Assembly (NCBI GenBank): GCA_017623295.1
Contig: JAGAPK010000074.1
Coordinates: forward strand, 18,092-82,091
Origin: Lachnospiraceae bacterium
Lineage (GTDB): Bacteria; Bacillota; Clostridia; Lachnospirales; Lachnospiraceae
DNA: 64,000 nucleotides
Direction of reading: 5' to 3'
The translations under genes and the position numbers were made by a program. Positions within the stretch are counted from its first letter, which is position 1. Every line of letters begins with the position of its first letter. Of the stretch, positions 34,400 to 38,599 are shown in pieces. Below the pieces are notes generated by a model. The model was not told the origin of the DNA. It did not search any database and saw nothing but the letters and a program-made list of their open reading frames with translations.

Positions 34400-34444
34400 A
34401 ATTGTCCCCTGTATAATTGACAATTTATTCGCATATGCTATAAT
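34400..34444 (+). promoter_or_regulatory. Consensus promoter of the structured RNA, with an overlapping dyad
   Basis: TTGACA (34417-34422), 16-nt spacer, TATAAT (34439-34444), both hexamers perfect. A 7-bp dyad, AATTGTC at 34400-34406 and GACAATT at 34419-34425, overlaps the -35 box and could be an operator. Confidence 0.75.
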
Positions 34445-35513
34445 ATGAATAAGTTAACTCGTGAAGGATAAGGCTGGGTTCCCGAATGGGAGTAAGTCGC
34501 AAGACTGAGAATGCCTTCGCCCCTGGGGTTAGCTTATTTTTTGCCAAATACTCTTTAAGATTCTGAATAATATTATCTGGATCTTTTTTTATTTCTTCCA
34601 CAATAAAGTCAATGGTCTGTATACTGTAACCATATGTATGAGTCAGCTGATGTTGATAACAAAACTTGGGATTCTCTTTTATCCCATAATATTTACAAAA
34701 CAAATTGAAATGGTATGTATTAAAACGCTTTGTCTCCTCACCGTACCTCAAGGTAATTCCAAGTCGGTTTAAGCGGGCACCTATTTCGACAACGCAGCTC
34801 TTTGTACTGTACTTATGTGTCACATTAGGATCTTTCAGTTCTTTCACAATTTTTACTTTGGCATCAGCCGAATTATCAATTCCAACAAACGATGTTGCCT
34901 TAGCTTTATCTTTTGTTATGAAATGATGATGCTCTATCTTGATAGCAAATTTGTCATTGTGCGAAACAATCATATCAGTAATAGAATCATTTACACTCAA
35001 CAGCTTATTTGCAATTTCTTCCGGATATTTAGCAATTATCTCAGACTCATCAAGAGCTTTCATGCTAATAGATAATGTCAAAAAGTTCTGAGGAACCACC
35101 GCAGTCATATCTATATTATGAAACACCAGCATCTTCTCGTTATAGTTCAATACGCATGATTGAAACAAAGGAACGTATACCATTTCATATTCCTCTGTAA
35201 TAAAATGAGTACTGGTATTTCGTAATTCAATAATTTTTTCTAAATTGATACGAAGCGGATCTTTATTATTGGTAAAAACTTTTTGAACACAGTTTTCCAA
35301 GGATAGTGTTCTCTGCGGATTATCCTTGTGATAAATACTATTCTCTCCCATTGTCTTTATCATATGTGCCTTCAGCATAAGCTCCCACGCATTGCATATA
35401 AATAACGCAAAACCTTCCACACGATACTTTATTGTTGGCTTGTTATATAATTCTATCGCCATGCAAAAGGCTTCTTTAGATTTTTCAACCAGCTTGTCTT
35501 GAATATTTTGCAT
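34425..35513 (-). CDS. DUF3644-like protein with a HEPN RNase motif
   Basis: 362 residues, cytosolic. The helical N-terminal part (1-110) contains ELRNTSTHFI, that is Arg98-x4-His103, the RX4-6H motif of HEPN ribonucleases, together with FALFICNAWELMLKAHMI typical of DUF3644. The middle is mixed alpha/beta; the C-terminal HTYGYSIQTIDFIVEEIKKD is also family-like. From about residue 323 on, the reading frame crosses the antisense RNA gene, and those 39 residues look unlike the rest, so the original end was probably near KEYLAKNK. AAAGGA precedes the ATG. HEPN proteins are often toxins or anti-phage RNases; that role here is inferred. Confidence 0.75.
   Translation of the reverse strand: MQNIQDKLVEKSKEAFCMAIELYNKPTIKYRVEGFALFICNAWELMLKAHMIKTMGENSIYHKDNPQRTLSLENCVQKVFTNNKDPLRINLEKIIELRNTSTHFITEEYEMVYVPLFQSCVLNYNEKMLVFHNIDMTAVVPQNFLTLSISMKALDESEIIAKYPEEIANKLLSVNDSITDMIVSHNDKFAIKIEHHHFITKDKAKATSFVGIDNSADAKVKIVKELKDPNVTHKYSTKSCVVEIGARLNRLGITLRYGEETKRFNTYHFNLFCKYYGIKENPKFCYQHQLTHTYGYSIQTIDFIVEEIKKDPDNIIQNLKEYLAKNKLTPGAKAFSVLRLTPIREPSLILHELTYSYYSICE
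34448..34542 (+). ncRNA. Structured small RNA gene of unknown class
   Basis: The RNA would begin just after the promoter and end at a T6 run. A 13-bp closing stem (34448-34460 with 34526-34538) surrounds a 7-bp stem (GTGAAGG 34461-34467 with CCTTCGC 34514-34520), which encloses two hairpins: TCCC-GAAT-GGGA (34480-34491) and AGTC-GCAA-GACT (34495-34506), the latter capped by a GNRA loop. Three T-G pairs hold only as G-U wobbles if the plus strand is the transcript. It overlaps the last 39 codons of the HEPN gene in antisense. I recognise no known RNA family. Confidence 0.7.
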
Positions 35514-35552: not shown

Positions 35553-35597
35553 AAAAGACGGGGACTTAACCGCCGGATGGTGGACCCGGGTCTTTAG
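35553..35597 (-). terminator. Terminator-like structure before the HEPN gene
   Basis: AAAGAC and GTCTTT close a GC-rich inner region on the minus strand, followed by T7. It overlaps the end of the dinD remnant and would isolate the HEPN gene from upstream transcription. Confidence 0.55.
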
Positions 35598-35724
35598 AGC
35601 AGTTTAAATAATAACAATTATAACACGCATATCTAGACAGTTCATAGTCTATCACTGGCTTTGATGTTGCTCCGGCATCTACGATTTTGCTGACCTCAGC
35701 AAAATCGTTTATATTCTTTTGCAT
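35566..35724 (-). pseudogene. dinD-like gene remnant
   Basis: A 52-codon frame whose central part, NINDFAEVSKIVDAG...VIDYELSRYACY, matches the middle of DinD (damage-inducible BRO-type proteins), where the phrase continues CYLIVQNGDP. Here the frame breaks right after CY: bases ATTGTTATT of the expected Ile-Val-Ile lie in another frame, and the rest of the gene is missing. The 5' part is also absent. A perfect 13-bp palindrome (35681-35708) lies inside it. A GGGGAGGT ribosome site in front opens only a 13-codon frame. It is probably not functional. Confidence 0.6.
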
Positions 35725-36857: not shown

Positions 36858-38462
36858 TTATTCTAACTTGTCAGCATATTTAACACGATAGATTCTTCTC
36901 AAGGATTCATTGATTCTTTCTTCTGAAATTGTTCCATCCTGTACTGCGGTTAAAACAGCATTATATGCTGTTTCAAAATCTTCCGGCATGAGAAGCATGT
37001 CCGCTCCTGCTTCAATTGCCATAACAGCTGCTTCTTCCGAAGTATAATATTCTGTGATTGCACTCATATTCAATGCATCTGTAATAACGATACCATCATA
37101 TCCTAACTCGCCACGAAGAACTGTCGTAATAACCGGTTCAGAAAGTGAACTTGGTACACCCTCTGTATCAATACCACTGGCAACAACATGACTTACCATA
37201 ATACAATCTACACCAGATTCAATTCCAGCTTCAAACGGAAGGAACTCAGAAGTTCTCATTTCTTCTAATGACTTTGTAATCTCTACTCTGCCATCATGAG
37301 TATCACCCTCGGAAGTTCCAATGCCCGGGAAATGTTTCATACACGCACTAATTCCCGTTCCTTCCATACCTTCAACAATACTTCCGGTCATATCCGCAAC
37401 AACTGCTGCATCTTCCCCGAAGGAACGATTTCCTAAGACTTCATCATTTGCAGCCGCTACATCTGCTACCGGAGCAAAATTGAGATTAAATCCTAATTCA
37501 TTCAAATAAGAACCAATTGTTACACCAGCTTCATAAGCAGCAGACGTATCACCCGTGGAACCAATCGTTGCCATATCATCCACCTGAATCACTTCAATAC
37601 TGCTATTTGCAACACGACTGACTTCTCCACCTTCCTCATCAACAGTAAGGAAAATCGGATATTTACTCTTTGGTGTAGTGTTACTTAACATTTCTGTCAA
37701 TTGTTCTTTATCCTCAATGTTTTTATCGAAATAGATAAAACCACCTACTGCATATTCATTTAATGCATTCTGTGTTCCTTCACCAGCCTGTGTAACAGTT
37801 CCGACACCAGTCAAAGACTCAGGCGTAACAATAAACAGACCCGCCACTTTATCTTCTAATGGCATTTCTGAAATACAACTATTAACAATTTCTTCCAATT
37901 GCTCATCATAAGTTGCTTCTTCTATTTCCGGTGGTGCTTCAATTACCAAATCTTCCGGTTCTGTCTGTTCCTGTGCCAACAATTCTGCCTGTTCCTGTGC
38001 CAAACGTTTCTCTTTTATAGAAGTAGAAATACGATGTCCTGCAAAAATGCCAACTCCGACTAAAATCGCAACAAAAATGCCAACTACGCCATAAACAATG
38101 ATTTGGTTTCGGATACGTCTTCTTCGACGATATTCTCGTCTATCACCTTCATCCTCTTCCTCCTCATCATCCTCTAGTTCTTCTTCATCATCTTCTATAT
38201 CTTCATCATCGTCGATATCTTCGTCGTCTTCTATGTCATCATCATCGTAGATATCTTCTTCATCTTCCATATCTTCTTCGTCGTCGATGTCTTCGTCATC
38301 CTCTATATCATCGTCGTCGTCGATGTCTTCGTCATCCTCTATATCATCGTCGTCGTCAATGTCTTCATCATCTTCCATATCTTCTTCGTCATCTTCTAAT
38401 TCGTCATCGTCAAATTCTCCATCATCAAAAAAATCCTTTGCACGATTAAATAATTTTCCCAT
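36858..38462 (-). CDS. Membrane-anchored GH3 beta-N-acetylhexosaminidase-like enzyme with acidic tail
   Basis: 534 residues from MGKLF (GGGAGG, 6 nt). Residues 12-108 are almost only Asp/Glu in tandem 12-residue units. Then come a basic RRRRR patch and one membrane helix (about 121-141), so the acidic tail should be cytoplasmic and the catalytic domain outside. The GH3 N-terminal barrel (about 190-530) shows GGFIYFDKN, NFAPVADV, KHFPGIG, DTHDG and the nucleophile Asp462 in VITDALNMSAI, as in NagZ. It likely acts on peptidoglycan or other beta-linked aminosugars. It is monocistronic as far as visible. Confidence 0.88.
   Translation of the reverse strand: MGKLFNRAKDFFDDGEFDDDELEDDEEDMEDDEDIDDDDDIEDDEDIDDDDDIEDDEDIDDEEDMEDEEDIYDDDDIEDDEDIDDDEDIEDDEEELEDDEEEEDEGDRREYRRRRRIRNQIIVYGVVGIFVAILVGVGIFAGHRISTSIKEKRLAQEQAELLAQEQTEPEDLVIEAPPEIEEATYDEQLEEIVNSCISEMPLEDKVAGLFIVTPESLTGVGTVTQAGEGTQNALNEYAVGGFIYFDKNIEDKEQLTEMLSNTTPKSKYPIFLTVDEEGGEVSRVANSSIEVIQVDDMATIGSTGDTSAAYEAGVTIGSYLNELGFNLNFAPVADVAAANDEVLGNRSFGEDAAVVADMTGSIVEGMEGTGISACMKHFPGIGTSEGDTHDGRVEITKSLEEMRTSEFLPFEAGIESGVDCIMVSHVVASGIDTEGVPSSLSEPVITTVLRGELGYDGIVITDALNMSAITEYYTSEEAAVMAIEAGADMLLMPEDFETAYNAVLTAVQDGTISEERINESLRRIYRVKYADKLE
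38163..38427 (-). repeat. Tandem acidic coding repeat, about 36-nt period
   Basis: The repeat encodes variants of DIDDDDDIEDDE within the cytoplasmic tail of the GH3 protein. At least five units are visible, with synonymous and conservative changes. Such arrays tend to vary in copy number between strains. Confidence 0.85.
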
Positions 38463-38599
38463 GTTAAACCTCCCGTCTAACCACAAAATAACCCAGTATT
38501 TCTACTATATATAGTATATAATAACCTATTTTTGCCCCTTTTACCACATAATTTTTCCTATTCTTCTATTTTCCTCTTATATAAGACAGCATATTTAAA

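Follow-up and report, generated by a model that had tools for sequence, protein, structure and literature searches.

In the excerpts available of the papers cited here, AbiF, a HEPN protein, is neutralised through direct binding by the RNA RCd22 (PMC12373285), while ToxI restrains ToxN and is mimicked by a pseudo-ToxI of the phage phiTE (PMC3475682). The same kind of source describes RNA anti-CRISPRs (Racrs) as solitary phage copies of an immune-system RNA (PMC10651486), and Cas13 is thought to descend from RNA-restrained toxins (PMC12737573). Here we describe a locus in 64,000 nucleotides (nt) of a Lachnospiraceae bacterium (assembly GCA_017623295.1, contig JAGAPK010000074.1, positions 18,092 to 82,091 of the forward strand; this whole stretch is called the window), where a structured RNA gene meets, on the opposite strand, a gene for a HEPN protein of the DUF3644 family. 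We consider the locus to be probably an anti-phage module in which a HEPN ribonuclease (RNase) is restrained by a structured RNA antitoxin, and the copies of the RNA that stand without the gene in phages (orphans) to be putative decoys. This reading builds directly on the linkage of RNA and gene within the close clade, a covarying fold, the RNA's own promoter and terminator, a conserved Rx4H motif, frequent adjacency to integrases, and orphans that keep the fold.

The RNA gene and the protein gene facing it

The features of the locus, by position in the window, are:

34417..34444, plus strand: RNA promoter, TTGACA-16-TATAAT, read directly; kept in 50/55 distinct upstream regions
34451..34542, plus strand: structured RNA gene, ~92 nt; from fold and covariation, no Rfam match
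34447-34460 paired with 34526-34539, plus strand: predicted closing stem of the RNA; fold
34472..34521, plus strand: ~50-nt RNA core (inner stem, hairpin 1 and hairpin 2), retained in phage orphans
34479-34492, plus strand: predicted hairpin 1 with GAAU loop; fold
34495-34506, plus strand: predicted hairpin 2 with GCAA loop; fold
34537-34542, plus strand: T6 end of the RNA, read directly
34425..35513, minus strand: open reading frame (ORF) of 362 amino acids (aa), HEPN DUF3644 and EC042_2821 restriction-endonuclease-like protein; ORF list, Pfam, PADLOC
34974..35495, minus strand: DUF3644 (HEPN) domain, aa 7-180; Pfam
35205..35222, minus strand: R98-x4-H103, putative RNase motif; invariant in 34/34 aligned sequences
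34554..34832, minus strand: EC042_2821-like restriction-endonuclease-like domain, aa 228-320; Pfam

An earlier reading of the letters alone (the sequence-only reading) had claimed this promoter, and the window letters bear it out (-35 TTGACA at 34417-34422, a spacer of 16 nt, -10 TATAAT at 34439-34444); of 55 distinct upstream regions, 50 match at least 10 of its 12 letters, versus ~7% of shuffles. The RNA start, which we take to lie at ~34451 from the usual spacing to TATAAT, corrects the claimed length of ~95 nt to ~92 nt. The fold that had been described (closing and inner stems, two hairpins, one of them with a GCAA loop, and a T6 end) was recovered as the predicted architecture of 34446-34542, in which the closing stem is long, at an energy of -32.9 kcal/mol (z = -2.86; 3/200 shuffles equally stable).

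The RNA is a covarying fold with invariant loops. In an alignment of the window with 54 relatives (A1; 55 rows, 54 distinct), pairing holds in 98.8% of cells and two-sided changes occur at 13 of the 25 pairs, which was matched by 0/500 shuffles; pairing falls to 39-69% when the partners are slid by 1-3 columns, and as the structure was derived from A1 itself, this control somewhat favours it. Invariant or nearly invariant G-U pairs at A1 columns 41-54, 38-90 and 20-101 fix the plus strand for the RNA, in agreement with the strand formerly assigned from wobble pairs. The most variable part is hairpin 2, which has a stem of at least 3 base pairs in 64 of 66 distinct segments and a GNRA loop in 16/66 (the segments were cut by a simple rule, and a few are mis-cut). 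A1 shows no unpaired stretch that is both variable and long enough for a guide.

The two outcomes that the sequence-only reading had named as speaking against it, an established Rfam family and homologues scattered without a link to DUF3644, were, taken as worded, not what we found; the reading had missed that the RNA stands alone in many phages (52 of 223 hits without the gene). Rfam 15 yielded no match at the gathering cut-off, nor a credible one when matches up to E 10 were allowed, and the abiF RNA motif RF03085 did not match the window RNA up to E 10. DUF3800-III was rejected as the RNA family, being weak (14.3 bits, E 0.81) and absent in 20 related viral records (0/20, up to E 10). The open-licence papers searched for DUF3644, EC042_2821, PDC-S19 and HEPN RNA antitoxins held no account of the RNA (preprints lay outside this scope, and a report elsewhere is possible), named PDC-S19 in no paper, and had nothing on RNA antitoxins in phage transfer RNA (tRNA) arrays.

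Another RNA, DUF3800-XI (RF02975), immediately precedes the DUF3644 gene in the window (35559-35606, minus strand) and in its two closest relatives (L016 3903-3950; L015 3905-3952), where it scores 58.8 and 58.9 bits; the window copy is decayed (15.2 bits). It was rejected as a part of the system, as it was not reported in 19 other loci.

By its sequence, the window protein belongs to the HEPN DUF3644 / PDC-S19 family. It matches PF12358 (DUF3644; E 9.2e-60, 201.8 bits), PF18740 (E 3.3e-34) and the PADLOC candidate defence model PDC-S19 (476.6 bits, E 1.2e-143). The R98-x4-H103 motif pointed out by the sequence-only reading holds, with R98 and H103 unchanged in 34/34 aligned sequences, window included, and both DUF3644 and EC042_2821 are listed among the HEPN families in the part available of PMC3710099. 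No NCBIfam match was obtained; up to E 1 the protein yields DUF3644 and EC042_2821 only, and no Abi_2 domain (PF07751).

Linkage and arrangement of the two genes

The RNA accompanies the gene almost without exception in its close relatives. In bacterial genome contigs searched with the protein it lies at the gene's 3' end, on the opposite strand, in 55 of 57 loci (46 with a full-length frame and 9 in which the gene is not intact in one frame; the RNA is in all 55), and in the two misses (L061 and L070) the contig ends inside the gene. Viral contigs, searched likewise, gave the RNA in 18/18 loci. Protein matches were present in 47 phage and 8 plasmid records, and among the 17 and 3 of these examined the RNA occurs in 16/17 and 1/3, respectively; the three records that lack it (L116, L117 and L130) have proteins of only 21-27% identity, while the most distant carrier examined is Corynebacterium phage Poushou (38% identical). 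In a set of 246 loci plus part of the window, 159 full-length relatives of the gene were counted, 150 of them with a convergent RNA by nhmmer; two of the nine misses (L079 and L085) represent a single locus, where the covariance model does see the RNA, and the other seven (L116, L117, L130, L244, L243, L008 and L084) are distant members below 100 bits. This set is redundant and many of its loci were selected by the RNA, so the fair counts are the protein-selected ones (55/57, 18/18 and 16/17), and these confirm the link between RNA homologues and DUF3644 genes that the sequence-only reading had proposed to look for. As expected of a toxin that is not kept without its antitoxin RNA, all full-length close relatives of the gene have the RNA, and the only full-length ORFs without it are the seven distant members; a broken fragment of the gene (G024) lacks it.

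Among genomes of the order, the RNA was found in 9/295 genomes and PF12358 in 11/295 (9 over the cut-off), both together in 5. The RNA-only genomes are G498 and G537 (orphans), G351, and G369 at a contig edge; in G351 tblastn gave no match to the gene, and a short ORF resembles its N-terminus by eye. Those with PF12358 only, over the cut-off, hold fragments (G024 and G525) or distant members (G337 and G433). In the phylum, the RNA was found in 6/348 genomes and the protein in 7/348, the three strong proteins all with the RNA and the four others distant. An RNA without a close gene occurs in G662, G862, as a second copy in G814, and in G641 on a contig piece that stops 55 nt past the RNA.

Some records carry more than one copy. 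For instance, Shouchella miscanthi has gene and RNA twice in one chromosome (L058 and L060), both in predicted IMG/VR prophages (L113/L114), and G814 combines a complete unit with a further RNA that faces an AbiD-type gene (L235, L239). Staphylococcus phage StB20-like and plasmid pSep6-3 (L129 1627-1728, L097 2130-2230) each have, in addition to the RNA at their DUF3644 gene, a second one that is convergent with a capA-family gene.

The usual design is two convergent genes that meet tail to tail at the RNA terminator, as the stop of the ORF falls a few nt inside the 3' arm of the RNA. Of the 45 loci that combine the RNA with an ORF of 300 aa or longer, the window among them, 21 have the stop 4 nt inside this arm, 12 have it at 9 nt and 6 at 32 nt, and the rarer positions (-58, -2, 0, 39 and 53) are represented by one locus each. 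The window is the sole locus whose ORF reads through the whole RNA gene (+113); the ORFs of its relatives end at about residue 320-330, and its extra ~36 codons traverse the RNA gene. The antisense overlap with the 3' end of the gene, as first described, is therefore complete in the window but peculiar to it, and antisense overlap as a general mechanism was rejected, since in most relatives the overlap with the coding frame is only a few bases long.

In the 11 examined phages and satellites with annotation (Javan375, 344, 495, 254, 9, 263, 737, 463, Chenonceau, phiSabovST1 and S-CoN_Ph25) the gene adjoins an integrase with the RNA in between, and most of these have a repressor, regulator or metalloprotease on the gene's other side. 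The unit also adjoins the integrase in Poushou; in Listeria phage LP-HM00113468 it lies downstream of the endolysin with an integrase further along, and in StB20-like it follows lexA and capA at the end of the record. Together with the PADLOC candidate match, these phage and satellite locations support the defence locus that the sequence-only reading had suggested. The nearby listed ORFs of the window, inspected by eye, include no integrase; one of 542 aa (36858-38486, minus strand) has a long N-terminal run of D/E repeats followed by a hydrophobic segment.

RNA copies without the gene

The 223 RNA hits comprise 150 with a full gene, 21 with a partial gene (either truncated by a contig end or broken) and 52 with none, and the last fall into 43 contexts, 36 of which extend for 1 kb or more on the gene side. 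A scan of viral contigs for the RNA pattern, blind to the gene, found 96 stretches; all 95 examined match the RNA model, with 51 full genes, 8 partial and 36 without. The first 80 loci selected by the pattern include 48 that bear the gene (41 full, 7 partial) and 32 that do not, where L173 is counted as gene-free (its apparent gene is a 51-aa chance frame) and four of the orphans have less than 250 nt on the gene side. Solitary RNAs in phages, the mark sought for an RNA-based anti-defence, are present, and 22/22 orphan-bearing records show no DUF3644 relative in a search that was positive in 10/10 controls. The RNA search detects the orphan in 21 of these 22 records, the missed one being Corynebacterium phage Darwin, weakly seen otherwise.

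Orphans keep the fold. RNAalifold gave the same architecture for 28 orphan RNAs (a set that includes a few near-duplicates), with two-sided changes at 17 of 23 pairs. However, most have lost the terminator, as a T5 run at the 3' end is present in 155/171 paired RNAs versus 12/52 orphans.

Several orphan cores abut, or sit amid, tRNA genes with which they share the strand. Such cores occur in five related contigs (L147, L194, L200, L209 and L232), in L227, in L229 (a 210-kb record) and in Darwin, where the core lies between tRNA-Lys and tRNA-Arg. In Eggerthella phage LE2-3 the core is ~500 nt from a tRNA. According to ARAGORN, the tRNA that the core abuts in L147, L194 and L209 has a four-base anticodon (cccc), and L232 has an unassigned tRNA in the same place. 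Enrichment of orphans near tRNAs was dropped as a claim: 8/52 orphans compare with 0/136 deduplicated paired RNAs, but by context the comparison is 4/43 against 8 paired contexts (p = 1). The host of Darwin, Corynebacterium vitaeruminis, is also that of four temperate-type phages matching the protein, Poushou, Colleen, TouchMeNot and Arianna; the RNA is found in Poushou by the model, and the core in all four by blastn.

No common second partner was seen among the orphan neighbours (10 proteins against PADLOC, 10 against Pfam), although PADLOC models of known or candidate defence match 6/10 and Pfam 9/10. Two orphans (L173 and L235) face an Abi_2/AbiD gene. Abi_2 was rejected as a second partner of the RNA, because the two proteins are barely alike (E 0.009) and hardly resemble the DUF3644 profile, and we read these cases as shared accessory slots; a search of viral contigs for relatives of the L173 protein returned L173 itself only. 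The orphan RNA of L076 (1501-1671) is followed immediately by a GP20-b RNA (RF03003) and by large phage ORFs of structural type.

Proposed working and comparison with known systems

The module would consist of a HEPN RNase with DUF3644 and EC042_2821 domains and of a structured RNA, transcribed on its own, whose binding to the protein would hold the RNase inactive. Infection would shift the balance of RNA and protein and free the RNase, whereas solitary RNA cores in other phages would act as decoy antitoxins that keep it off. We infer toxicity, RNA-protein binding, inhibition, a trigger, an RNA target and the decoy role. The antitoxin reading is suggested because the RNA is retained without the gene, whereas genes of the close clade are seen only together with the RNA; an inhibitor is favoured over an activator because a phage gains from carrying the former and not the latter, and decoys are proposed by analogy with phiTE pseudo-ToxI and Racrs. 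More tentatively, the RNA family as a whole may be the antitoxin of a DUF3644-HEPN anti-phage nuclease in prophages, satellites and bacteria of several phyla, with many phages using solitary ~50-nt cores, some in tRNA operons, as a recurrent non-CRISPR RNA counter-defence.

Several observations weigh against this proposal. Distant DUF3644 proteins occur without this RNA, so the protein class need not always have it, and the ~1.5 kb examined of G024, which hold a broken fragment of the gene (71% identical), contain no RNA. Many orphan records may be fragments, the placement in tRNA arrays rests on 4 independent contexts, and the core in Darwin scores weakly (22.8 bits, E 0.0036; nhmmer E 1.6e-7). 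A profile search of PDB sequences for relatives with solved structures gave 0 matches up to E 10. Finally, ToxI is repetitive, unlike the window RNA, which is a single unit.

The sequence-only reading had left the role of the RNA between antisense regulator, guide and antitoxin, of which the last fits best. If the nuclease instead required the RNA as its cofactor or guide, as in Cas13, the strict linkage would be equally compatible, and CRISPR type VI HEPN nucleases do use RNA (PMC12373285, in its available part). We find this unlikely, since A1 has no variable unpaired stretch that could serve as a guide, and an activator would be useless to phages, yet orphans make up 52 of the 223 hits. Regulation of the DUF3644 mRNA by cis antisense pairing or transcription collision is quite improbable: it would suit convergent genes with a common terminator region and the complete overlap in the window, but the coding overlap is usually 4-9 nt, and neither the covarying fold with its invariant loops nor the gene-free orphans are explained by it.

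The orphans themselves can be read otherwise while the RNA stays the antitoxin of the intact module. They could be remnants after gene loss in swapped accessory slots, as some adjoin a repressor, integrase or resolvase, others adjoin candidate defence genes (AbiD twice, PDC-S25, PDC-M68B, REase_II and PDC-S13), and loci exist with a broken or truncated gene and the RNA kept. But their stems show compensated changes, their terminator is mostly lost, as if they had been rewired into other transcripts, some lie in tRNA arrays far from accessory slots, and the 22 records searched bear no trace of the gene; this makes remnants rather unlikely. It is very improbable that the RNA belongs primarily to phages, with a function of its own there, and is mimicked by the module RNA so that the phage RNA serves as trigger or competitor. 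Its wide occurrence across phages of varied sizes and contexts would agree with such an origin, but selection in phages would act against a trigger, and RNA with gene, promoter and terminator is the commoner form (171/223, though the sampling was partly via the protein).

If the proposed antitoxin and decoy roles are true, a second HEPN family would join the RNA-restrained toxins, and an independent case would be at hand for testing how RNA-dependent HEPN nucleases originated. PDC-S19, a candidate defence gene, would gain its apparent missing half, and expression tests without the RNA could fail or mislead. Moreover, phage RNA decoys would be natural and repeated, with a host pairing provided by the Corynebacterium vitaeruminis phages Poushou and Darwin.

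Among described systems, AbiF with AbiFr/RCd22 is alike in having a HEPN RNase with an R...H motif, an adjacent non-coding RNA and a prophage location (available excerpts of PMC12373285 and PMC12737573). It differs in that AbiF is an Abi_2 protein and the window protein DUF3644, and in the RNA, which does not match RF03085; RCd22, as far as those excerpts go, is upstream and co-transcribed, whereas the window RNA is convergent with its own promoter, and its binding to the protein is proposed here. ToxN is not known to be a HEPN protein. ToxIN and phiTE are alike in the proposed working, an RNA antitoxin of an RNase together with its imitation by a phage (PMC3475682, in part), and Racrs are alike as solitary phage copies of an immune RNA (PMC10651486, in part); the latter belong to another immune system, and the decoy role is proposed here by analogy with them. 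The window protein is a member of the PDC-S19 and HEPN DUF3644 and EC042_2821 families, for which the available part of PMC3710099 does not mention an RNA partner. A HEPN toxin with an RNA antitoxin is thus a kind of system already known, and the locus differs from it in the protein family, the RNA, the arrangement of the two genes and the spread of the orphans.
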